Assembly (NCBI GenBank): GCA_020628545.1
Contig: JAHDEX010000003.1
Location: 54,166-118,165 of the forward strand
Reading direction: 5' to 3'
DNA length: 64,000 nucleotides
Source of the DNA: Paracoccaceae bacterium
GTDB lineage: Bacteria > Pseudomonadota > Alphaproteobacteria > Rhodobacterales > Rhodobacteraceae
The notes under the pieces were generated by a model. The model ran no database searches, was not told the origin of the DNA, and saw only the letters and a program-made list of their open reading frames with translations. Shown piece after piece: positions 30,657 through 43,645 of the stretch. The position numbers and the translations under genes were made by a program. Each line of letters begins with the position of its first letter. The first letter of the stretch is position 1.

Positions 30657-30729
30657 AATATTTAGTGTCACCGCATCTTATTCGCCCATCTTGCGGCGCG
30701 CTGCATCACTTGTCTGGAGGGACCATCCG

Positions 30730-32502
30730 ATGAAAATGACCACAGAAGAAGCCTTTGTCAAAACACTGCAACGACATGGCATCCGTCATGCCTTCGGGAT
30801 CATCGGATCGGCTATGATGCCTATTTCCGATATTTTCCCTGCTGCGGGCATCAAATTCTGGGACTGCGCACACGAAGGATCCGCAGGCTTCATGTCTGAC
30901 GGCTACACACGCGCCACCGGCGAAATGTCGATGATGATCGCGCAAAACGGCCCCGGAATCACAAACTTCGTCACCGCTGTGAAAACAGCTTACTGGAACC
31001 ACACACCGGTTCTGCTGGTCACACCACAGGCGGCCAACAAGACCATCGGTCAGGGTGGCTTCCAGGAAATGGAACAGATGAACCTATTCAAAGACTGTGT
31101 GGCCTACCAGGAAGAGGTTCGCGACCCATCCCGCATCTGCGAGGTACTGGCCCGCGTGATCTCTAAAGCGCACCGCTTGTCCGGCCCAGCGCAAATCAAC
31201 ATCCCGCGCGACTTCTGGACCCAGGTTGTCGACATCGAGATCCCCGATCCGATTTCGTTTGAAGCTTCCCCTGGTGGCGAGAACTCCGTCGCTGCTGCTG
31301 CTGCGTTGCTCTCTGAAGCGAAGTTCCCAGTGATCTTAAACGGCGCTGGTGTTGTCCTCTCCGAGGGCGGCATCGAAGCTTCCAAGGCTTTGGCCGAGGC
31401 CCTCGACGCGCCTGTCTGCGTTGGTTACCAGCACAACGACGCCTTCCCAGGCTCTCACCCGCTGTTTGCCGGCCCCCTCGGCTACAACGGCTCCAAGGCT
31501 GGGATGGAACTGATCAACAAAGCCGACGTCGTTCTGGCCCTCGGCACACGTCTGAACCCATTCTCCACCCTGCCCGGCTACGGCATCGACTACTGGCCGA
31601 CAGACGCGAAGGTCATTCAGGTTGACATCAATCCTGACCGCATCGGTCTGACCAAGAAGGTCTCGGTGGGCATCGTGGGTGATGCGGCCAAAGTGGCAAA
31701 AGGCATCACTGCCAACCTCGCTGACGGTGCCGGTGACGCAGGCCGCGATGAGCGGAAAGCGATGATCGCCGACACCAAGTCGAAGTGGAAGCAAGAGCTG
31801 TCCTCGATGGACCACGAGCAGGACGATCCGGGCACCACATGGAATGAGCGTGCCCGTGCTGCCAAGCCTGACTGGATGTCCCCACGCATGGCATGGCGCG
31901 CGATCCAAGCCGCACTGCCACGTGAAGCGATCATCTCGTCAGACATCGGCAACAACTGCGCGATCGGCAATGCCTATCCGGACTTTGACGAAGGCCGCAA
32001 ATACCTGGCACCTGGCCTCTTTGGTCCATGTGGTTACGGCCTGCCGTCCATCGTGGGCGCGAAGATTGGCTGCCCAGACGTGCCAGTTGTCGGTTTCGCC
32101 GGTGACGGCGCCTTCGGCATTGCCGTGAACGAGTTGACGGCCATCGGCCGCGGCGACTGGCCCGCGATCACGCAGATTGTCTTCCGCAACTACCAGTGGG
32201 GTGCCGAAAAGCGGAACTCCACCCTGTGGTTTGACGACAATTTCGTGGGCACAGAGCTCGACACGGAAGTGTCTTATGCTGGCATCGCAAAGGCCTGCGG
32301 CCTTGAAGGCGTTGCGGTCCGCACCATGGACGAGCTGACCGACGTTCTTAACAGGGCGATCAAAGATCAGATGGAAAACAACAAAACCACGCTGATCGAA
32401 GTCATGCTGAACCAGGAACTGGGCGAGCCGTTCCGCCGCGACGCGATGAAGAAACCAGTCCGCGTTGCAGGTATTGATGCAGCCGATATGGCGGCGGAGT
32501 AA
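30730..32502 (+). CDS. xsc: sulfoacetaldehyde acetyltransferase
   Basis: Xsc is a thiamine-diphosphate enzyme that converts sulfoacetaldehyde and phosphate to acetyl phosphate and sulfite, the carbon-sulfur cleavage step of taurine and isethionate breakdown. The 590-residue length is that of known Xsc. Visible blocks are the N-terminal FGIIGSAMMPISDIFPAAGI, IAQNGPGITNFVTAV, and the ThDP-binding GDGAFGIAVNELTAIGRGDW ... NYQWGAEK. ATG 30730 follows a GGAGGGACC ribosome site, 13 codons inside the track ORF. A terminator-like hairpin follows, so xsc may be transcribed more strongly than the genes after it. Confidence 0.95.
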   Translation: MKMTTEEAFVKTLQRHGIRHAFGIIGSAMMPISDIFPAAGIKFWDCAHEGSAGFMSDGYTRATGEMSMMIAQNGPGITNFVTAVKTAYWNHTPVLLVTPQAANKTIGQGGFQEMEQMNLFKDCVAYQEEVRDPSRICEVLARVISKAHRLSGPAQINIPRDFWTQVVDIEIPDPISFEASPGGENSVAAAAALLSEAKFPVILNGAGVVLSEGGIEASKALAEALDAPVCVGYQHNDAFPGSHPLFAGPLGYNGSKAGMELINKADVVLALGTRLNPFSTLPGYGIDYWPTDAKVIQVDINPDRIGLTKKVSVGIVGDAAKVAKGITANLADGAGDAGRDERKAMIADTKSKWKQELSSMDHEQDDPGTTWNERARAAKPDWMSPRMAWRAIQAALPREAIISSDIGNNCAIGNAYPDFDEGRKYLAPGLFGPCGYGLPSIVGAKIGCPDVPVVGFAGDGAFGIAVNELTAIGRGDWPAITQIVFRNYQWGAEKRNSTLWFDDNFVGTELDTEVSYAGIAKACGLEGVAVRTMDELTDVLNRAIKDQMENNKTTLIEVMLNQELGEPFRRDAMKKPVRVAGIDAADMAAE

Positions 32503-32599
32503 GGCGATCTCAGCGGTCGCAATCAGTCACCTTTGGCAGGGCCCAGGCGGCGCGCGCGTTTGCCGCGTGCCCCAATCACGACCGCCACAGAAAGACAAC

Positions 32600-32634
32600 G
32601 CTCTGCCCGCGTCACGCGCGGGTAGAGCCGTTTT
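32600..32634 (+). terminator. terminator or attenuator after xsc
   Basis: GCTCTGCCCGCG (32600-32611) pairs with CGCGGGTAGAGC (32617-32628) through 12 positions with one G-T pair and a 5-nt loop, followed by CGTTTTAA. It sits about 100 bp after xsc and 125 bp before pta, so it could set the ratio of xsc to the downstream genes. Confidence 0.65.
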
Positions 32635-32757
32635 AACTCGTAATGCCGCAAACCTTACGCACCTCGGTCATCGTGCATCTGCGTCAACTTTTTGCATTTA
32701 CCCTCCCGCAAACCCGATCATTGTGGGGCATATCGAAGTGAGCCGGGGGATATTCTT

Positions 32758-33693
32758 ATGACATCCATTTTCGTTTCCGAGCGGGAGGCTGTCTGCCCGC
32801 CTAACCTGATAAAACTCGCACAAGGTTTTGCCGCACCCCGCGTCGCGATCGCGCGGGCGAGCGCACCGCTGCCGATGGAGGCCGCTGAAGACGCAACCAA
32901 GGCTGGTATCATGACCCCGGTCTTCGTGGGTGAAGCCGATGTGATCCGCGCTGAAGCGGACAAGCTTGATTGGGATATCTCCGGCTACGCCCTGCACGAC
33001 ACGACCGGCGAGGAAGAAGCGGGCATGACCGCCGCGCGCCTGTGCGGCGAGGGTGAGGCCGATGTGCTGATGAAAGGTCAACTGCACACGGACGTCTTCA
33101 TGAAATCCGCCGTCAGCCGTGACAACGGCCTGCGAACCGGCAAGCGTTTTGTCCATATCTTCCACATCAGCCATCCCGACGGTGGCAAACCGATCCTGAT
33201 TTCTGATGCTGCTGTGAACGTGTCGCCAAATCTTGAAACCCGCCAAAACGCCATGGAAGAGGTTGTCGACCTGCTGCAGCGTCTGGGCACAGAGCGCCCT
33301 AAACTCGCGATCTTGTCCGCGACCGAAAGCCCCATCCCTTCAGTCCCATCGTCTATGGATGGCCAAGCGCTCGCTAATTGGGCGAAAGAGAACTTGAAGG
33401 ACGCGGACGTCTCCGGCCCCCTCGCCCTCGACCTGATCCTGTCGAGCAAAGCGGCGGCGACCAAAGGCCTAGGCGATGATCCGGTGGCAGGGGATGCCGA
33501 CGGGATCATCGTTCCCGATATCGTTTCGGGCAACGCGCTGTTCAAAGCCATGGTCTATCTGTCCGGCGGCTGTGCAGCTGGGATCGTCAGCGGCGCCAAG
33601 GTACCAATCCTGCTGACCTCCCGCGCAGACCCTGCCGCAGCCCGCATGGCATCCGCTGCATTGGCAGCAATACGGTGCGGTTTGCCAAAATGA
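32758..33693 (+). CDS. pta: phosphate acetyltransferase (PTA/PTB family)
   Basis: The 311-residue protein belongs to the phosphate acetyl/butyryltransferase family, here of the short single-domain form. It turns the acetyl phosphate made by Xsc into acetyl-CoA. Visible blocks are VLMKGQLHTDVFMKSAV, HIFHISHPDGGKPILISDAAVNVSPNL and DGIIVPDIVSGNALFKAMVYLSG. ATG 32758 follows GCCGGGGGA; the track start is 22 codons upstream. It overlaps ackA by ATGA. The short form is the one commonly linked to xsc. Confidence 0.9.
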   Translation: MTSIFVSEREAVCPPNLIKLAQGFAAPRVAIARASAPLPMEAAEDATKAGIMTPVFVGEADVIRAEADKLDWDISGYALHDTTGEEEAGMTAARLCGEGEADVLMKGQLHTDVFMKSAVSRDNGLRTGKRFVHIFHISHPDGGKPILISDAAVNVSPNLETRQNAMEEVVDLLQRLGTERPKLAILSATESPIPSVPSSMDGQALANWAKENLKDADVSGPLALDLILSSKAAATKGLGDDPVAGDADGIIVPDIVSGNALFKAMVYLSGGCAAGIVSGAKVPILLTSRADPAAARMASAALAAIRCGLPK

Positions 33694-34751
33694 TCCTTGT
33701 GCTGAACGCAGGCTCGTCATCTTTGAAGGTCGAGGTTTTAGATCGGCAGTTGACTTCTGTGCTTAGCGGATCTGTGACCGAAATCGGTGCTGACGGGACG
33801 TTGCGGTTGGGTGACGAGCGCTCCCCAATCTCAGCGACACATCACGCCGCTGCACTCGGCGCGATGCTTGCGGCGCTCGAAGGCAAAGGCATTAGACCAG
33901 ATAATTTAGAAGCTGCAGCGCACCGCGTCGTCCATGGCGGTACCATCCTGACCCGACCGGCCAAGGTCACGCCGCAAGTGATCACCGCGATTGAGGCCTG
34001 CATCCCGCTCGCCCCGCTGCACAACCCCAACAACCTCGCGGCTATATTGGCGTTGCAAGAAACCGCACCCGACTTGCCGCAATACTGCTCTTTCGGGACT
34101 GCGTTTCATGCGACAAATCCCGACGTTGCAACGCGCTATGCCATTGCGCAGACCCAACACGACGCAGGTATCCGCCGCTATGGTTTCCACGGTCTGAGCT
34201 ACGCGAACATGGTTGCGGAGTTTGGCGACACACTGCCGTCCCGCTTACTGGCACTGCACCTTGGCAACGGCGCATCGCTCTGCGCAATCAAAGACGGCAA
34301 ATCCATTGCCACATCAATGGGCTATTCGCCGCTTTCTGGCCTGACCATGGGCACCCGGTCCGGTGACATCGACGGCGCCGCAGTTCTCCGAATGTCTACC
34401 GCACTCGGCGAAGACGAAACGGACCGGATGCTGAACAAAAACTCCGGCCTCAAGGCACTCGCGGGCGACAGCAATATGAAAACGCTGTTGGACCGAGACG
34501 ACAGTGCCGCCAAATTCGCTGTCGAGCATTTCTGCTACTGGGCCGCACGCCATGCAGGTTCCGCCATTGTTGCGATGGGCGGGGTTGATGCTGTCGCCTT
34601 TACGGGTGGTATCGGTGAAAACGCGGCTCCTGTGCGCGACCGGATCATGGCGCACCTCGCTTGTTTCGGCTCGCCCGATGTTCACGTCATCGCGGCAGAC
34701 GAAGAAAAACAAATCGCCCGCGACGCGCTCTCTATAATGGAGGCCGCATGA
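33690..34751 (+). CDS. ackA: acetate/propionate family kinase with altered active site
   Basis: The 353-residue protein has acetate kinase motifs: LVLNAGSSSLKVEVLD at the start, HRVVHGG, LHNPNN, YGFHGLS, LHLGNGAS, MGTRSGDID and FTGGIGENAA. In most acetate kinases the catalytic aspartate is in F-D-T-A-F-H; here the motif reads FGTAFH with GGG coding Gly136. It is also shorter than the usual 390-400 residues. The position between pta and tauE, with ATGA overlaps at both ends, implies a role in acetyl phosphate to acetate and ATP conversion. Activity may be reduced or different. Confidence 0.85.
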   Translation: MILVLNAGSSSLKVEVLDRQLTSVLSGSVTEIGADGTLRLGDERSPISATHHAAALGAMLAALEGKGIRPDNLEAAAHRVVHGGTILTRPAKVTPQVITAIEACIPLAPLHNPNNLAAILALQETAPDLPQYCSFGTAFHATNPDVATRYAIAQTQHDAGIRRYGFHGLSYANMVAEFGDTLPSRLLALHLGNGASLCAIKDGKSIATSMGYSPLSGLTMGTRSGDIDGAAVLRMSTALGEDETDRMLNKNSGLKALAGDSNMKTLLDRDDSAAKFAVEHFCYWAARHAGSAIVAMGGVDAVAFTGGIGENAAPVRDRIMAHLACFGSPDVHVIAADEEKQIARDALSIMEAA

Positions 34752-35509
34752 TTTGGCTCACCGATATCACGAGCCTGACAGCATCCGAATTCTGGATCGT
34801 CACGGCCATTGTTTTCCTGGCCGGTCTTGTGCGTGGCTTTTCTGGTTTTGCACTGTCGGCGCTCATAATGGCGACCGCCGTTGTCATCCTGCCGCCCGTC
34901 GAGCTGATTCCAATGCTTTGGTGGCTCGAGATGTCGGCATCGCTTCTCATGATCAAGGAAGGTTTCCAAGACGCCGACCGCCCAACGACATATGGCCTTG
35001 TTATCGGCAATACGGTTGGCTGGCCGATTGGTTTGTGGCTCACGGTTTCACTCGACGTGGCTATGTCCAAAATAGTCGCACTCACCATCATCGTGGTTCT
35101 GGCCGCCAGCCAACTTGCAAAAGTCCGCCTTGGATTCCTCGCGTCCAAACCCGGCCTCTACGGCACCGGGATTGTTGCAGGCATTGTCAGCGGTCTCGCC
35201 CACGTGGGCGGCATGGTCGTTGCCTTCTATGTTTTGGCCAGCAACGCACCTGCACGCTCCATGCGCGGCTCGCTGGTGCTTTACCTATTCCTCGGCTCAC
35301 TTGTCTCACTCTTCATCCAACTTGCGTTTGGCGTCATGGATATGTCCGGCGTCGCGCGCGGGCTGGTCTTTGCAATCCCTACGATGATCGGGGTCTTCTT
35401 GGGGCAAAAGCTCTTCATTGAACGCCTCGCCCCTTATTACCGCCCCTTCTGCCTGACGCTGCTGTGCGTTTTGGCCAGTGCGGGTCTCATCCGCACTGCT
35501 GTTTCGTGA
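34748..35509 (+). CDS. tauE: TauE/SafE family exporter, probable sulfite exporter
   Basis: The 253-residue membrane protein has about eight hydrophobic segments and the family signature GLVRGFSGFALSALIMATAVVILPP near the start with a second repeat GIVAGIVSGLAHVGGMVVAFY. TauE proteins export sulfite or related sulfur anions released by Xsc. It starts at ATG 34748, overlapping the ackA stop; the track start 29 codons upstream lies inside ackA. soeA begins 11 bp after its stop. Sulfite may therefore be either exported here or oxidised by SoeABC. Confidence 0.88.
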   Translation: MIWLTDITSLTASEFWIVTAIVFLAGLVRGFSGFALSALIMATAVVILPPVELIPMLWWLEMSASLLMIKEGFQDADRPTTYGLVIGNTVGWPIGLWLTVSLDVAMSKIVALTIIVVLAASQLAKVRLGFLASKPGLYGTGIVAGIVSGLAHVGGMVVAFYVLASNAPARSMRGSLVLYLFLGSLVSLFIQLAFGVMDMSGVARGLVFAIPTMIGVFLGQKLFIERLAPYYRPFCLTLLCVLASAGLIRTAVS

Positions 35510-35520
35510 AAGGACAGATG

Positions 35521-38343
35521 ATGTCACTTGATCAACCCAACCTGGATACATCACCGAAAGTCTCGGACGAGGTGCGCAAAACCACCTGCTACATGTGCGC
35601 CTGCCGCTGCGGAATCAACGTGCATATGAAGGGTGGCAAGGTGGCCTACATCGAAGGCAATCGCGACCACCCGGTGAACCAGGGCGTGCTCTGCGCCAAA
35701 GGCAGCGCCGGTATCATGCAGCATAATGCACCATCGCGCTTGCGTGCGCCGATGAAGCGCGTGGGCGAGCGCGGGTCAGGTGAGTTTGAAGAGATCAGCT
35801 GGGACGAAGCACTCAAGATGGCCGTCGATCTGCTCAAGCCGATCAGGGAGAACAACCCAGAGAAACTGGCCTTCTTCACCGGTCGTGACCAATCGCAGTC
35901 GTTCACCGGTTTCTGGGCGCAGGCCTACGGCACCCCCAACTTTGCAGCGCATGGCGGTTTCTGCTCTGTCAACATGGCGGCGGGCGGCATCTACACCATG
36001 GGCGGCGCGTTTTGGGAGTTTGGCCAGCCCGACTGGGACCGCACAAAGATGGTGATGATTTTCGGGGTCGCCGAAGATCACGACAGTAACCCGATCAAGA
36101 TGGGCATTGGCCGCGCGAAAAAGAAAGGCGCGAAGATCATCGGCGTGAACCCGATCCGCACCGGCTACAACGCAGTGGCCGACGAATGGGTTGGCATCAC
36201 CCCCGGCACCGACGGCCTTTACATCCTGTCGATGATCCACTGCCTGATGAAAGCAGGCAAGATTGACCTCGACTACCTGGCCCGTTTCACCAACGCCTCT
36301 TGCCTCGTGAATGAGGACCCGAACAGTGATCAACGCGGTCTTTTGCTGAAAGACAGCGATGGTCAGCCGGTTGTGATCGACCGGAACACCGGCAAACTAG
36401 CGCCTTGGAACGGTCAGGGTGTGGAGCCTGATTTATCCGCCACGTATCGCGATAAGGGCATCACCCACCGCCCGGTCTTCCACCTGATGGCGGACAAATA
36501 TCTGTCTGACGAATACGCGCCGGAGAACGTGGCAGAGCGCGTGGGCATCTCAGCCGAAAACATCCGCAAGATGGCCGCGGACCTGGCGCGTGTGGCATTT
36601 GATGAGGAAATCAGCCTCGACCGTACGTGGACAGACTTCCGCGGCAAAACCCATACCAAGATGGTCGGCCGCCCCGTGTCGTTCCACGCGATGCGCGGAA
36701 TCTCTGCCCACTCCAACGGGTTTCAGACCTGCCGCGCGCTGCATACGTTGCAGATCATCCTCGGTACGGTCGAAACACCCGGCGGCATGCGGTTCAAACC
36801 GCCATATCCAAAACCTGCGACGGCACACCCCAAGCCGCACGGCAAAGTGACCCCCGGCGCTCCGCTCGACGGACCGCATCTCGGTTACGCCCAAGGCCCA
36901 GACGACCTGCTGATTGAAGACGACGGCACGCCAAAGCGGATCGACAAAGCCTATTCGTGGGAGAACCCCATGTCCGCCCACGGGCTGATGCATATGGTAA
37001 TCTCTAACGCCCATGCGGGCACGCCCTATAAGATCGACACGCTGTTTATGTATATGGCGAACATGTCGTGGAACTCCTCCATGAACACGTCGGGCGTGAT
37101 GAAGATGCTGACGGACAAGAATGAGGACGGGTCTTATGTCATCCCGAATATCATCTACTCCGATGCCTACTCGTCAGAGATGGTCGCCTACGCCGACCTG
37201 ATCCTGCCCGACACGACCTATTTGGAACGGCACGACTGTATCTCGCTCCTCGACCGTCCAATTTGCGAGGCTGATGGCGTCGCAGATGCGATCCGCTGGC
37301 CGGTGGTCGAACCTGACCGCGACGTGCGCGGTTTCCAGACGGTGCTATGCCAGCTTGGCGCGATGCTCGACATGCCGGGATTCGTGAACGACGACGGCAG
37401 CGCGAAGTACACAGACTATGCCGACTACATCACCAACCACATCCGCCGTCCTGGCGTCGGCCCCTTGGCTGGGTTCCGCGGAAATGGGGATGACCATGGC
37501 CGTGGCGACGTGAATCCCAACCAGCTTGACCGCTACATCGAAAACGGTGGTTTCTGGATCGAACATGTTCCTGACGACTGCGCCTACTACAAACCCTTCA
37601 ACACCGCCTATCAGGAATGGGCAGTGAAGATGGGCTTCTATGATGTGGTCCAGCCCTATATCTTCCAGCTCTACGTGGAACCGCTGCGCAAGTTCCAACT
37701 CGCCGCCGAAGGCGTGGGCGACCGTCAACCGCCAGAACATTTGCGCGAACGTCTGAAGCGAACCATGGACCCGCTACCGATCTGGTACGCACCGTTCGAA
37801 GACGGGCATGTCGACCCGGAAGAGTTTCCGGTTCACGCCCTTACCCAACGACCCATGGCAATGTACCACTCCTGGGGCACGCAGAACGCGTGGCTGCGCC
37901 AGATCCATGGGCACAACCCGCTCTATGTTCCCACCAAGATCTGGGAGGAGAACGGCTTTGAAGAGGGCGATTGGGCGAAAGTGACCTCCGCACATGGCGA
38001 AATCGTTGTGCCGGTCGCGCATCAGGCCTCGCTCAACGCAAACACCGTCTGGACCTGGAACGCGATCGGCAAGCGCAAGGGTGCCTGGGCGCTCGACGAA
38101 GGCGCGCCGGAGGCCACCAAAGGGTTTCTGTTAAACCACCTGATCCACGAATTGTTGCCACCTAAAGGCGACGGGATGCGCTGGGCCAACTCCGACCCGA
38201 TCACCGGTCAGGCGGCGTGGTTCGACCTGCGCGTGAAGATCAGCAAGTCGGACGTACCGAATGAGGCACAACCCGCGATCCCGCCGATCAAATCACCAGT
38301 CGGCAAAGGCCCTGGCAAACTGACTTGGAAGGTGGGGTCGTGA
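35521..38343 (+). CDS. soeA: sulfite dehydrogenase (quinone) molybdopterin subunit SoeA
   Basis: The 940-residue protein is a DMSO-reductase-family molybdoenzyme. An N-terminal [4Fe-4S] site is visible (CYMCACRCG ... GVLCAKG), followed by the molybdopterin domains (VMIFGVAEDHDSNPIKMGIG, AYSSEMVAYADLILPDTTYLE) and a C-terminal dinucleotide-binding domain (RPMAMYHSWGTQNAWLRQIHGHNP). There is no Tat signal, which fits the cytoplasmic location of SoeABC and argues against a periplasmic reductase. The reaction is sulfite to sulfate. I use ATG 35521 rather than 35518, as AAAGGA is better spaced for it. Confidence 0.92.
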   Translation: MSLDQPNLDTSPKVSDEVRKTTCYMCACRCGINVHMKGGKVAYIEGNRDHPVNQGVLCAKGSAGIMQHNAPSRLRAPMKRVGERGSGEFEEISWDEALKMAVDLLKPIRENNPEKLAFFTGRDQSQSFTGFWAQAYGTPNFAAHGGFCSVNMAAGGIYTMGGAFWEFGQPDWDRTKMVMIFGVAEDHDSNPIKMGIGRAKKKGAKIIGVNPIRTGYNAVADEWVGITPGTDGLYILSMIHCLMKAGKIDLDYLARFTNASCLVNEDPNSDQRGLLLKDSDGQPVVIDRNTGKLAPWNGQGVEPDLSATYRDKGITHRPVFHLMADKYLSDEYAPENVAERVGISAENIRKMAADLARVAFDEEISLDRTWTDFRGKTHTKMVGRPVSFHAMRGISAHSNGFQTCRALHTLQIILGTVETPGGMRFKPPYPKPATAHPKPHGKVTPGAPLDGPHLGYAQGPDDLLIEDDGTPKRIDKAYSWENPMSAHGLMHMVISNAHAGTPYKIDTLFMYMANMSWNSSMNTSGVMKMLTDKNEDGSYVIPNIIYSDAYSSEMVAYADLILPDTTYLERHDCISLLDRPICEADGVADAIRWPVVEPDRDVRGFQTVLCQLGAMLDMPGFVNDDGSAKYTDYADYITNHIRRPGVGPLAGFRGNGDDHGRGDVNPNQLDRYIENGGFWIEHVPDDCAYYKPFNTAYQEWAVKMGFYDVVQPYIFQLYVEPLRKFQLAAEGVGDRQPPEHLRERLKRTMDPLPIWYAPFEDGHVDPEEFPVHALTQRPMAMYHSWGTQNAWLRQIHGHNPLYVPTKIWEENGFEEGDWAKVTSAHGEIVVPVAHQASLNANTVWTWNAIGKRKGAWALDEGAPEATKGFLLNHLIHELLPPKGDGMRWANSDPITGQAAWFDLRVKISKSDVPNEAQPAIPPIKSPVGKGPGKLTWKVGS

Positions 38344-38456
38344 TGAGTTTCGCCTTCGCCTCCGTCGCGGCAATCGCGACCATCCTTATTTACGGTGCGC
38401 GCCAAGTGCACAGCCAGTGCATGCCTTGTGCACAGCCAATTCGAGGGCCAAAATGA
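38343..38456 (+). CDS. 37-aa membrane mini-protein encoded between soeA and soeB
   Basis: This ORF is not in the supplied track. It opens with TGATG (its A is the last base of the soeA stop) and closes with ATGA overlapping the soeB start, so it is fitted exactly between the two genes. The product MSFAFASVAAIATILIYGAR... has one hydrophobic helix (residues 3-19) followed by a short polar tail containing CMPC. No strong ribosome site is needed because of the coupling. I do not recognise it. It could be a small subunit or assembly factor for SoeABC, or merely a spacer that keeps ribosomes moving. Confidence 0.6.
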   Translation: MSFAFASVAAIATILIYGARQVHSQCMPCAQPIRGPK

Positions 38457-39232
38457 CCCAGCTACCATCTTCAACCCAAAAGAAACTCGGCCTCGTGATC
38501 GACCTGGACACCTGCGTGGGTTGCCATGCATGTGTGATCTCCTGCAAAGGCTGGAATACCGAAAACTACGGCGCACCACTGTCGGATCAGGACCCTTATG
38601 GGGCCAACCCAACGGGCACATTCCTAAACCGCGTGCATTCTTATGAGGTGCAGCCACCAAACCTGAAAGACGGGTCAAAAGCCGCCGCTCAGCTGATCCA
38701 CTTTCCGAAATCCTGCCTGCATTGCGAAGACGCACCTTGCGTGACCGTCTGCCCCACCGGGGCCAGCTACAAGCGGCAGGAAGACGGGATCGTGCTCGTC
38801 AATGAAAGCGACTGTATCGGCTGCGGCCTGTGCGCCTGGGCCTGCCCCTATGGCGCGCGGGAACTCGACGCCGATGAAGGCGTGATGAAGAAATGCACCC
38901 TCTGCGTGGACCGCATTTATAACGAAAACCTACCCGAAGAAGACCGCCAGCCTGCCTGCGTGCGGACCTGCCCGGCTGAGGCGCGGCACTTTGGCGACTT
39001 CGCTGATCCAGAAAGCAACGTTTCCATCCTCACAGCAGAACGCGGCGGGATGGACCTGATGCCGGAACAAGGTACCAAGCCGGTAAACAAATACTTGCCC
39101 CCGCGCCCCAAGGACGAAGCTCCTGAATTCGATGTGCTCGCCCCCTACCTTGAACCCATCGCACAAGACGCAAAAGGCTTTGTCGGCTGGCTCGACAAAA
39201 CGCTGTCTGCCATGCCCAGAGGAGCAAAGTAA
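38453..39232 (+). CDS. soeB: sulfite dehydrogenase iron-sulfur subunit SoeB
   Basis: The 259-residue ferredoxin-like subunit has four cysteine clusters for four [4Fe-4S] centres: CVGCHACVISCKG, CLHCEDAPCVTVCPTGA, CIGCGLCAWACPYGAR and CTLCVDRIY ... CVRTCPAEARHFGD. It passes electrons from SoeA to the membrane subunit. The start is ATG 38453, 12 codons inside the track ORF, preceded by GAGGG and overlapping the 37-codon ORF as ATGA. It overlaps soeC by TAATG. Confidence 0.94.
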   Translation: MTQLPSSTQKKLGLVIDLDTCVGCHACVISCKGWNTENYGAPLSDQDPYGANPTGTFLNRVHSYEVQPPNLKDGSKAAAQLIHFPKSCLHCEDAPCVTVCPTGASYKRQEDGIVLVNESDCIGCGLCAWACPYGARELDADEGVMKKCTLCVDRIYNENLPEEDRQPACVRTCPAEARHFGDFADPESNVSILTAERGGMDLMPEQGTKPVNKYLPPRPKDEAPEFDVLAPYLEPIAQDAKGFVGWLDKTLSAMPRGAK

Positions 39233-40101
39233 TGCATCCCGCACCATCCGTTATCATCTTCACGACCTTCTCGGGCCTTGGGTTCGGTCTATTATTCTGG
39301 CTTGGCCTCGGCGCGATCAAACCCATGGGCTGGGGCGCATTCCTGTGGTTTTTCATCGCCTACGCGATGGCCGTTGGCGGTCTGATCGCCTCCACCTTCC
39401 ACCTCGGCCACCCGGAGCGGGCGATCAAAGCCTTCTCCCAATGGCAGACGTCCTGGTTGTCGCGTGAGGGGATTGCTGCCGTCTTCACGCTCGTTGTCAT
39501 GGGCATCTATGCGCTTGGCGCGCTGTTTGGCGTGCATATGGGTTTCACCGGCTTCATCGGTGCCATTGGGTGCCTGGCAACGGTTTTCACGACGTCGATG
39601 ATCTACGCCCAGTTGAAAACCGTGCCGCGCTGGCGGCATTGGTCCACACCGGCCATGTTCCTGCTTTTGTCCATTGGCGGCGGTGCCTTGTTTGCGGGAC
39701 AAGTCACAGTTGCAATCGTGCTGCTGCTGATCGCAGCGGTGATGCAGTATTTCGCCTGGATGTCAGGTGATGGGCGGCTGAGCCATAGCGGAACGAACCT
39801 GAAAACAGCGACCGGGCTGGGTACCATTGGTGAGGTCCGCGCGTTTGAACCGCCGCACACGGGCACTAACTATCTTCTGAAGGAGTTTGTGCATGTGGTT
39901 GGCCGCAAGCATTCTGCCAAGCTGCGCCAGATCACGCTGGGCCTTGCGTTTCTCGCGCCTATCCTGTTGCTGCTATTGCCGTTCAACCACTTCTTTGCGC
40001 TGCTCGCTGTGCTTTGCCATGTGGCAGGAGTATTGACGCTCCGCTGGCTCTTCTTTGCAGAGGCTGAGCACGTCGTCGGGCTCTATTACGGCAAGCGCTG
40101 A
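39232..40101 (+). CDS. soeC: sulfite dehydrogenase membrane anchor SoeC (DmsC family)
   Basis: The 289-residue protein is hydrophobic throughout, with about eight helices, and belongs to the DmsC-type quinone-reacting anchors (HPAPSVIIFTTFSGLGFGLLFWLGLG; STFHLGHPERAIKAFSQWQTSWLSREG is the conserved signature of the family). It hands electrons from SoeB to the quinone pool. It is the last gene of the sulfonate run and is followed by a hairpin. The next gene is convergent. Confidence 0.93.
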   Translation: MHPAPSVIIFTTFSGLGFGLLFWLGLGAIKPMGWGAFLWFFIAYAMAVGGLIASTFHLGHPERAIKAFSQWQTSWLSREGIAAVFTLVVMGIYALGALFGVHMGFTGFIGAIGCLATVFTTSMIYAQLKTVPRWRHWSTPAMFLLLSIGGGALFAGQVTVAIVLLLIAAVMQYFAWMSGDGRLSHSGTNLKTATGLGTIGEVRAFEPPHTGTNYLLKEFVHVVGRKHSAKLRQITLGLAFLAPILLLLLPFNHFFALLAVLCHVAGVLTLRWLFFAEAEHVVGLYYGKR

Positions 40102-40181: not shown

Positions 40182-43100
40182 CTAGACGAAGAGATCGTCG
40201 TAGGTGCCGGCGAACAAGCCAACATTGTCAAGCAGCGGACCGTTGCCATCAGACGCACCCGCAACTGTGCTTTCGCGAAAGACGAGTTCGTCAACGCCGC
40301 CAGTGCCAGTCACTTCTGCATAAAACGTTGTCCATTCCCCGTCCTGTTGACCCTTGTAGCCTTCTGCGCGGATCAATAATCCGTTCCACTCCACGTAAAG
40401 TGTCTCACTCTCACCATCGCGGTCGCCCCGGCGGGCCTGCATATCGAATGCCAATGTATAAACCTGGTCTTCGACGGTGTTAATCTCTTGCGAAATGCCA
40501 TCGACTTCCCCGGCACGTCTGTAGTCAATCTCCATCAGCGTTTCGCCGTCGGAAGCCTCAGTACCGTTGTGGCCGCTGTCCCAGAACTCGAGCCGCTCAC
40601 CATTCAGAGAGGTCCAGCCATCGACGGTTCCGGGATCGACATTTGTCCACCTGTTGTCGGCGACAGAAACGGACTCGAAAGAGCCGTTTGTAAGCAGGTT
40701 TACGGGTTCTGGTGTCGGGCCATTGTCTGCGCGTCCTTTGAGTGAGACGTTGTCAATCAGTGGCCCAAAGCCATCAGACGCGCCCTCCCGAAACACGATG
40801 CGGTCCGTGCCGCCAGTGCCAACAACCGTTACGCTGACGCTGGTCCAAGAAGCGTTGCTATCGGCATTGAAACCGTCCGCCTGCAGAAGCTGCCCGTTCC
40901 ATTCCACATAAAGCGTTTCGCTTCCGCTTGCGGCGTCGCTGCGCCGCGCGCGCATGTCGAAAGTTAGCGTGTAAACCTCGCCTGCAATCGTTTCGACGTC
41001 TTGATAGATACCATCAATTTCTCCGGCGCGGTTGTAGTCAAGTTCTGCAAGCGTCTCACCGTCTGACGCCGTCACGCCGGAATGACCGCTATCCCAGAAT
41101 TCTAGTCGCTCACCATTCAGGGACTTCCAGCCTGCTACTTCGCTGTCATCCACGTGGACCCAGCCTCCGTCGCGTACTGACAACGCCTCAAAGGAGCCAT
41201 TCACCAGCAGTTCTTCAGTTGGTGTTGGAAGAAAGATCTCAACTTCAGCCAGCGAGATCGAAGCGTCCTGGCTTTCAAGCTGAATGCGAACGTAGCGGCC
41301 TGTCACCCCTTCGTCGGTGTTGAGATTTTCGATCGCCCCTGCGGTGCCGGGGTTATGAAAGCTCCAGACACCGGGATCGGTGAGCGCGGCGCTGAGATTG
41401 CCGGAGTTGAACGGCACGTCAGAAACGAGGATCCAGTAATTGCTGATTGCAGCGCCTGTTTCGGTGTGCACACGGATCTGTCCAATGTCTTGGATGCCTC
41501 CAAGATCGACCTCCCACAAAGGTGTGCGTGTCACCACAGTTTTGGAGACAGACGCCGCAGTAAAGTCGGGTGCCGTGTTGCCATCAACAGCGCGTGACGC
41601 GAGCCCACCATCTGCTGTGCCCGATTGCGTTGTTGGACGACCCAAAGCCAAATTCGCGCCCTGTGACGCGTCAGAGACCACATCAACCTCAAAGGTCTTT
41701 GTGTCACTTCCGCCGTTTCCGTCTGTCACTGTCAACGTAACGTCATTCCTGCCGGGGGTCGTAAATGTGTTTTCGACGATAGCACCGGTGGCGTCAGTCA
41801 CCCCGTCACCATCAAAGTCCCAGGCAAAGGACAAGTCGTCACCATCTGCATCCGACGATTCTGTGGCGTCGAACCGGACATCGATCATGTTAAGACCCGC
41901 AGTACGGGACGCAACGCCGTCTGCAACAGGGTCAGCATTCGGCTGCGTCGGTTCGCCTTGTGAGACGATGCGCGATAGCTCCCCGGTAAAGAGGTTCAAC
42001 ATCCAAAGGTTACCGTCCGATCCCATCTGAATGTCGACGACACCACGGTAGGCGCCTGGCTCTCCAAACTCTTCATAATTTCCGCTTTGGTCTGCTGTGT
42101 AGATGATCCCCTGGTTAACGTTCGCGAAAAAATAGCGGCCATCATAGAAATCGGGATAAGTATCACCTCGATAGACAGCGCCGCCCAAAATTGAGTCGCC
42201 GCCACCCGCGTTGGTATGTGGCAGTTCGATAAAGGCGCTTTGATAGACAAAATCGATTGGCGGGTTTGGGTTGTGACCGGTCTGATTGTCGCCCTGATAG
42301 TAGGGCCAACCATAGTTTGGCAGGGTTGAGCCGTCGGCCCGCATCACGTTGATTTCTTCTGGGCCCCCGTCGGTGACCTCCCCCATATAGACGTCACCCG
42401 TTTCTCGATCGACGGTGATCTTCCAAGAGTTCCGAACTCCTGTCGCCCAGACGCGAGACGCGGTACCACCCGGATCCGTTGGATCGTAGTAAGGGTTGTC
42501 TTCGATGCCCTCAAAAGTCTCTCTATCGATACGGAAGAGTTTGCCCTGGACTGAATCCGGGTCTTGGGACGCAAGTCGCAGGTCGTTCCGGAAGCCACCG
42601 TCGCCCCACGTATAGATCAGATTCCCGTCATTATCGAAATCCACGTCACCCACCGCATGGGTCGCATGCGACATTTCATGACCATCCTGGATCACGACGC
42701 GCGTCGATAGGTCTGCGACGTTCGGGTTGTCCTCTGACGCGGTAATGCGGATCAGACGACCGCTCGCCGCGGAATTGAAGTTTGGCTCGTCCGGGTTTTC
42801 GGGGTTAATCTCCACCACGTACTGCAAGTAAACGTGGCCGTTTGTTTCAAACTCGGGGTCGAGAGCAATACCCATCAAGCCACGGTCGTGATGTGAATTC
42901 ACCTCTTCATTGATATCGATGAATTCGCTGACGATCTGACCGTTTTCAATGACTTTGACGCGGCCCGCTTTTTCGGTCACGAAGATGCGTCCGTCAGGCG
43001 CCTCAACAAATGCAATCGGCTGATCGAGACCTGCGACAATGGTTTCTGTGGTGAACGGCGGCACCTCCGGTTCCGGAAGGTCCACCACACCCTCAAACAA

Positions 43101-43595
43101 GCGAACATGATCGAGGAGAGGACCAAAGCCCGTCGAACCGCCTGCCGCCTCACTTTCCCGGAATGTCAGACGGTCGAGACCGCCGGTGCCTGTCACTTGG
43201 ACAGCGACGGTCGTCCACGAAAAAGCAGTAGGTGGCGTAAAACCATCGATTTCTACCGAGACGCCGTTCCATTCGACAATCAGCCGGTTGTCTTCGCCAT
43301 CCAGACTCCCGCGTCCCTGAATATCGAACATAAGCGTATAGGTTTCGCCAGCCTGAGTCTGCACATCTTGATAGATGCCATCAGTTGGACCGGCCCCCAG
43401 GTGGTCGATTTCAATGTGCCGCTCGCCATCGGACGATGGCGTTCCGGCGTGGCCACTGTCCCATGCCTCGATCTGGGTACCATTGATCGTGCCCCAGCCT
43501 TCAACATCGGACGCTTCAACTGCGCGAAACGCGCCTGCACCCACTTCGATCGTTTCAAACGACCCATTCACCAACAGATTGACAGCACCATCCAT
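40182..43595 (-). CDS. large multidomain sugar-dehydrogenase-like protein (GSDH, PKD, F5/8-C, carbohydrate-binding repeats)
   Basis: The 1137-residue protein contains, in order: a DUF642/CBM-like jelly-roll domain (about 1-165, NLLVNGSFE ... VEWNG), a soluble-aldose-dehydrogenase-like beta-propeller (about 185-545, LDQPIAFVEAPDGRIFVTEKAGRV, SHHDRGLMGIALDPEF), a PKD domain (about 560-645, FAWDFDGDGVTDATG), an F5/8 type C discoidin domain (about 655-800), and two more copies of the first domain that are closely alike (SLNGERLEFWDSGH in both). No signal peptide is present, and the C-terminus ends in an acidic and hydrophobic tail (TYDDLFV), suggesting type I secretion. I use ATG 43595; the track's GTG 43607 is four codons earlier. 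Confidence 0.8.
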   Translation of the reverse strand: MDGAVNLLVNGSFETIEVGAGAFRAVEASDVEGWGTINGTQIEAWDSGHAGTPSSDGERHIEIDHLGAGPTDGIYQDVQTQAGETYTLMFDIQGRGSLDGEDNRLIVEWNGVSVEIDGFTPPTAFSWTTVAVQVTGTGGLDRLTFRESEAAGGSTGFGPLLDHVRLFEGVVDLPEPEVPPFTTETIVAGLDQPIAFVEAPDGRIFVTEKAGRVKVIENGQIVSEFIDINEEVNSHHDRGLMGIALDPEFETNGHVYLQYVVEINPENPDEPNFNSAASGRLIRITASEDNPNVADLSTRVVIQDGHEMSHATHAVGDVDFDNDGNLIYTWGDGGFRNDLRLASQDPDSVQGKLFRIDRETFEGIEDNPYYDPTDPGGTASRVWATGVRNSWKITVDRETGDVYMGEVTDGGPEEINVMRADGSTLPNYGWPYYQGDNQTGHNPNPPIDFVYQSAFIELPHTNAGGGDSILGGAVYRGDTYPDFYDGRYFFANVNQGIIYTADQSGNYEEFGEPGAYRGVVDIQMGSDGNLWMLNLFTGELSRIVSQGEPTQPNADPVADGVASRTAGLNMIDVRFDATESSDADGDDLSFAWDFDGDGVTDATGAIVENTFTTPGRNDVTLTVTDGNGGSDTKTFEVDVVSDASQGANLALGRPTTQSGTADGGLASRAVDGNTAPDFTAASVSKTVVTRTPLWEVDLGGIQDIGQIRVHTETGAAISNYWILVSDVPFNSGNLSAALTDPGVWSFHNPGTAGAIENLNTDEGVTGRYVRIQLESQDASISLAEVEIFLPTPTEELLVNGSFEALSVRDGGWVHVDDSEVAGWKSLNGERLEFWDSGHSGVTASDGETLAELDYNRAGEIDGIYQDVETIAGEVYTLTFDMRARRSDAASGSETLYVEWNGQLLQADGFNADSNASWTSVSVTVVGTGGTDRIVFREGASDGFGPLIDNVSLKGRADNGPTPEPVNLLTNGSFESVSVADNRWTNVDPGTVDGWTSLNGERLEFWDSGHNGTEASDGETLMEIDYRRAGEVDGISQEINTVEDQVYTLAFDMQARRGDRDGESETLYVEWNGLLIRAEGYKGQQDGEWTTFYAEVTGTGGVDELVFRESTVAGASDGNGPLLDNVGLFAGTYDDLFV

Positions 43596-43645
43596 CACAC
43601 ACCCCACAACTGGCTAACGAAGCGTCAACATCGACACCGCAGCTT

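Follow-up and report, generated by a model that had tools for sequence, protein, structure and literature searches.

A short open reading frame between soeA and soeB of a Paracoccaceae bacterium: a probable translation relay left after loss of a small membrane protein

In the stretch of DNA analysed here (64,000 nucleotides of contig JAHDEX010000003.1 of a Paracoccaceae bacterium, in the following called the window) the gap between soeA and soeB is filled exactly by a short open reading frame. We considered two alternatives why such a frame could be kept. First, its peptide (MSFAFASVAAIATILIYGARQVHSQCMPCAQPIRGPK) could be of use to the cell; second, the frame could be kept for the translational coupling of its neighbours. 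The two are easily confused in searches for small ORFs. Here they could be separated, and the soeA-soeB junction shows a coupling frame and a peptide gene side by side within one genus.

The flanking genes of the window (Table 1) show the subunit order of SoeABC, namely molybdopterin subunit, 4Fe-4S subunit and NrfD/DmsC-type subunit. The soeA start is the likely one as inferred from the sequence; the open frame runs from 35464. As the preliminary description had claimed, the mini-ORF starts in the soeA stop and ends in the soeB start: the stop codon TGA of soeA (38341-38343) overlaps the ATG at 38343-38345 (TGATG), and the stop codon TGA of the mini-ORF (38454-38456) overlaps the soeB ATG at 38453-38455 (ATGA). 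Initiation at the in-frame GTG would give a 4-nt overlap with soeA (GTGA) and the longer product. In species whose soeA and soeB overlap without a spacer, the place of the Shine-Dalgarno-like stretch at the end of soeA is the one in front of soeB (contexts of the type GGTGGGCAAATGA), and the mini-ORF architecture with coupling at both ends recurs in the soeA-soeB junctions of relatives.

Table 1. Coordinates of the features at and around the soeA-soeB junction of the window
Feature	Position	Strand	Basis or detail
soeA, molybdopterin subunit of sulfite dehydrogenase	35518..38343	+	Pfam Molybdopterin 4.6e-25, Molybdop_Fe4S4 3.2e-17
AGGTGGGG, Shine-Dalgarno-like, within the last soeA codons, 5' of the mini-ORF start	38330..38337	+	sequence
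Gap-filling ORF, putative relay	38340..38456	+	GTG 38340 = 38 aa, ATG 38343 = 37 aa
Hydrophobic segment FAFASVAAIATILIYGA, predicted helix	38349..38399	+	hydrophobicity, AlphaFold2
Degenerate 11-bp tandem array GTGCGCGCCAA GTGCACAGCCA GTGCATGCCTT GTGCACAGCCA	38395..38438	+	lag-11 identity
GAGGG, Shine-Dalgarno-like for soeB, inside the mini-ORF	38443..38447	+	sequence
soeB, 4Fe-4S subunit	38453..39232	+	Fer4_11 1.7e-23
soeC, NrfD/DmsC-type membrane anchor	39232..40101	+	DmsC 2.6e-10

To learn what the place between soeA and soeB holds in other genomes, we read 55 junctions from Yoonia, the genus of the window, and, from the other genera of the family, 146 that were readable. A conserved protein with a single transmembrane (TM) helix is encoded there in 48 of the Yoonia junctions and in 32 of those from the other genera; these counts are no census, because the family junctions were sampled in order of the similarity of their SoeB to that of the window. 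The TM protein typically has 47-65 aa with the consensus M(T/S)NRQVLLLIAAFVxLTLGSFIWFIATWDxxKExPV (in short form LLLIAAFVxLTLGSFIWFIATWD) and a variable tail. Scanning 84,980 genomes with a peptide pattern gave 80 loci, all 80 with soeB directly downstream and soeA upstream, and even in gaps that have taken up further genes the small gene still adjoins soeB. In a sample of 397 genomes from across the family the profile of the TM protein matches 37, with one copy per genome. Of 289 genomes sampled from the class it matches two, a same-genus one and one with a weak match (0.002), so that the protein is essentially confined to the family. The weak match lies in another family of the class (G713:C3:64110-64202, L317).

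The helix of the TM protein has a pooled pN/pS of 0.27 and a median dN/dS of 0.17, with 29/14/58% of the differences at the three codon positions, and the alignable tails have a pN/pS of 0.56. Purifying selection on the TM protein of the relatives is thus well supported by the sequence comparison. For one member AlphaFold2 predicted a helix at residues 3-36 (pLDDT 82), and by the positive-inside rule the positive N-terminus and the acidic residues past the helix suggest an N-in/C-out topology. No meaningful match was obtained in Pfam, NCBIfam or PDB, and the CydX/YbgT model of Pfam matched neither the window peptide nor 46 relatives at E values up to 1. Nor did the papers searched include one on a small membrane protein of SoeABC or on ribosome-profiled small proteins in Rhodobacteraceae, and there was no annotated plasmid-borne soe cluster of Rhodobacteraceae among the PLSDB matches. 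The conserved single-TM protein at the soeA-soeB junction of Rhodobacteraceae is so far unnamed and without a family model. A conserved small membrane protein stands beside the sulfite dehydrogenase of marine Rhodobacteraceae, and its role can be tested in Yoonia and Loktanella strains available in culture. One Yoonia subgroup (L073-L075, L077-L079) departs from the coupling rule: the TM protein is only 36-38 aa long there, which leaves about 95 nt between its end and soeB, although several of these junctions have another short ORF whose end overlaps the start of soeB.

The window peptide occupies the same place directly 5' of soeB, has the same double overlap and, like the TM protein, a single N-terminal hydrophobic helix, but it does not carry the core motif (G)SFIWF(I/V)ATWD. 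As a member of the TM family by profile it had to be rejected: it scores -0.8 bits, and 616 of 1000 of its own shuffles score as well or better. For the peptide of the sister genome G372 the score is -0.1 bits and the number of such shuffles 519 of 1000. All 78 family members score above 50 bits, 46 of these 78 having been used to build the profile. A second copy of the TM protein was not found in the window's own genome. In a tree built from the C-terminus of SoeA and the N-terminus of SoeB the window groups with G372, G031, G024 and G358 (support 100/98), and none of these five has the motif of the TM family. Because the clade is nested among TM-bearing Yoonia species, the simplest reading is that the window lineage has lost the conserved TM protein. 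Across the family the presence of the TM protein changes at least 19 times on a quick tree in which many branches are poorly supported, and on this basis the TM protein seems to come and go often.

The single membrane helix which had been claimed for the window peptide was borne out by prediction. Its hydrophobicity over 17 residues has an unusual peak of 2.0-2.2, a value of 2.0 or more being reached by three of 225 chance-size ORFs in the window, and AlphaFold2 run on the single sequence gave a helix at residues 4-27 of the 38-aa form (pLDDT 76). Among the fillers other than the TM protein, the divergent family members L129, L134, L148 and L222 being set aside, only the window and G372 exceed 2.0; the next highest value is 1.22. 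The two hydrophobic segments have this property in common and not their sequence. Between the first 18 codons of the window ORF and of G372 there are 14 replacement and 2 synonymous-only changes, as against 15 and 97, respectively, between the two soeB genes. The synonymous-biased conservation expected of a functional peptide thus failed to appear, and the excess of replacements is the pattern which the preliminary description had named as speaking against one. Purifying selection is not seen on the window helix, for which there is one close relative with a comparable spacer.

From these data we assessed whether the window peptide could be a fast-diverged functional member or replacement of the TM protein, that is, a one-helix accessory subunit stabilising the SoeC anchor in the manner of CydX. 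Its place and overlaps, the helix confined to the window and G372 among the non-TM fillers, the loosely alignable spacer DNA of the two and the purifying selection on the TM family of sister species would fit such a role, but the profile score is that of a shuffled sequence, replacements prevail over synonymous changes, the near-invariant S-F and T-W-D of the family are missing and the spacers of the three other clade members have no helix. We regard this explanation as unlikely. The broader proposal that the soeA-soeB junction of Rhodobacteraceae encodes an unrecognised single-TM component of SoeABC, either a fourth subunit or an assembly peptide, of which the window peptide would be a rapidly evolving functional version, appears quite unlikely. 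The idea of an overlooked small membrane peptide of SoeABC is well supported for most of Yoonia and part of the family, where a conserved TM protein (dN/dS about 0.17) always lies directly 5' of soeB, but not clearly for the window's own peptide. As for the window's hydrophobic segment, it may be what is left of the lost TM protein, or selection may have kept a helix for its hydrophobicity alone.

The exact fit of the window ORF to its gap is by itself weak evidence. For this one spacer a doubly coupled ORF would arise by chance with a probability of about 0.16 when any length modulo 3 is allowed, and of 0.56 at the actual length. Across the relatives the fit is far above chance. Among 67 junctions that have a spacer of 20-260 nt and no TM protein, 59 contain an ORF coupled at both ends, whereas 13.2 would be expected with the length free modulo 3 (at most 28 in 100,000 simulations) and 34.5 with the length kept. 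Of 132 short gaps, 113 have a length that equals 1 modulo 3, and a further 35 junctions lack a spacer altogether, their soeA and soeB sharing a -4 or -1 overlap. The filler peptides are unrelated, and many of their sequences contain recurrent DNA words such as AATATCCCGGGG, GGGCAGCGCCCC and CCGCCGGAGG. Comparison of the spacers of relatives, as had been proposed, shows that in those without the TM protein the frame is preserved and the peptides are not. Since so many junctions are coupled with little shared peptide and others overlap directly, it is the chain of overlaps that is constant. These persistent fillers point to selection for translational coupling of soeA and soeB, which explains the exact fit of the window ORF better than a peptide function does, because fillers with unrelated peptides fit equally well. 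The word CCGCCGGAGG was found in 27 short spacers (e.g. L002, L005, L015) in one orientation and in 2 in the other; the reverse orientation perhaps brings stops or lacks the Shine-Dalgarno-like AGG.

The same counts bear on the possibility that the window ORF is open merely by chance and has no role, be it through its peptide or through coupling, soeB being translated from its own ribosome binding site. The probabilities for a single spacer and the good distance of GAGGG from the soeB start are compatible with this, but chance would hardly account for the 59 coupled junctions, nor for the fact that all five members of the window clade keep the frame despite near-complete sequence turnover, and we consider a mere accident decidedly improbable.

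The CMPC motif reported in the short tail of the peptide is present, but it is not conserved in G372 and it overlies a tandem array of four 11-nt units with the translation HSQCMPCAQP. The lag-11 identity of the array is 0.58; of 2000 shuffles, 11 attain this value at lag 11 itself and 54 at any lag from 8 to 14. At the homologous place in G372 (L061) it is 0.91. A dispersed 11-bp repeat was not found in the window genome, strict patterns matching one of 81 family genomes, twice; we therefore speak of a tandem array and not of a genome-wide repeat. That the tail serves an assembly peptide of SoeABC in metal binding or redox chemistry is very unlikely: the C-x-x-C pair of the window has a resemblance in the CxxCA tails of L090, L091 and L095, but G372 reads CTSGA without the Cys pair, arrays of the same kind (TGCATGGGTTGTGCA-type) read as CMGCA and give such tails in L091 and L095, and the matches of the window peptide elsewhere in the family include arrays of this sort outside soe (L034, L035).

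We conclude that the window ORF of 37 or 38 codons is probably a translation relay left after the loss of a small membrane protein. Ribosomes finishing soeA would reinitiate at 38340 or 38343, translate the spacer, end at 38456 and restart on the overlapping ATG of soeB, so that the synthesis of SoeA and SoeB would stay coupled over about 110 nt of spacer, which without the ORF would interrupt the coupling. The gene of the TM protein, still present in most of the genus, would formerly have occupied this place; in the window clade it would have disappeared or become scrambled, with repeat-like DNA taking part of its place, the doubly overlapping frame being kept. The peptide is probably made but dispensable, its translation, the reinitiation and its lack of function being inferred, and its hydrophobic N-terminus may be a relic. 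We read the ORF as a relay because the overlaps are constant, because coupling collapses with distance and because short ORFs that deliver ribosomes are known. In experiments with E. coli and Haloferax, reinitiation was near zero at a spacing of 20-38 nt, and coupling of overlapping gene pairs requires short distances (PMC10666635); short ORFs that solely deliver ribosomes occur, for example, inside mycobacterial MIRU repeats (PMC12548453). Some findings count against the relay: with a Shine-Dalgarno-like GAGGG of its own, soeB might do without coupling, 8 of the 67 non-TM spacers are uncoupled, and the hydrophobic segment of the window and G372 is more than a random filler would be expected to yield, as 0.2% of shuffled open spacers give one.

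Several known systems resemble the proposed relay in part. Termination-reinitiation gene pairs with -4 or -1 nt overlaps (Huber et al. 2019, 2023) have TGATG and ATGA between the subunit genes of one complex as in the window, which differs in that its spacer is long and is spanned by an additional short ORF, so that both contacts are still overlaps. The MIRU short ORFs likewise consist in part of repeat-like DNA, overlap the next gene by 4 nt and need no peptide function (PMC12548453); unlike them, the window genome has no identified mobile repeat, and the place is that of a real protein gene in most of the genus. With CydX-type subunits (PMC4325964) the window peptide shares the 37-aa, one-helix format and the operon of a membrane-bound, quinone-linked enzyme, a comparison of how such a peptide might work only, as it has no Pfam match to any such family and its status as a subunit is putative.

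In several genera whole genes, named by eye from their translations, are inserted between soeA and soeB: a LysE-type exporter (L016, L026, L087, L099), an alpha/beta-hydrolase-like gene (L098, L114, L123, L172, L174) and further insertions in L082, L084 and L085. Most of the inserted genes keep a 4-nt overlap with soeA and many an overlap with the next gene.

In the window, xsc, pta, ackA and a TauE/SafE permease (30691-35509) lie directly upstream of soeABC, with a MocR-type regulator also among the upstream genes, all recognised by eye from the translations. Judged in the same way, this is a setting of sulfonate degradation, with a route that looks complete and leads from sulfoacetaldehyde to acetyl phosphate and to sulfite, which SoeABC would oxidise. 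At 40182-43607, on the minus strand, a secreted-looking protein of 1141 aa is encoded; by eye, NLLxNGSFE domains recur in it, its centre resembles sorbosone dehydrogenase and one domain is PKD-like.
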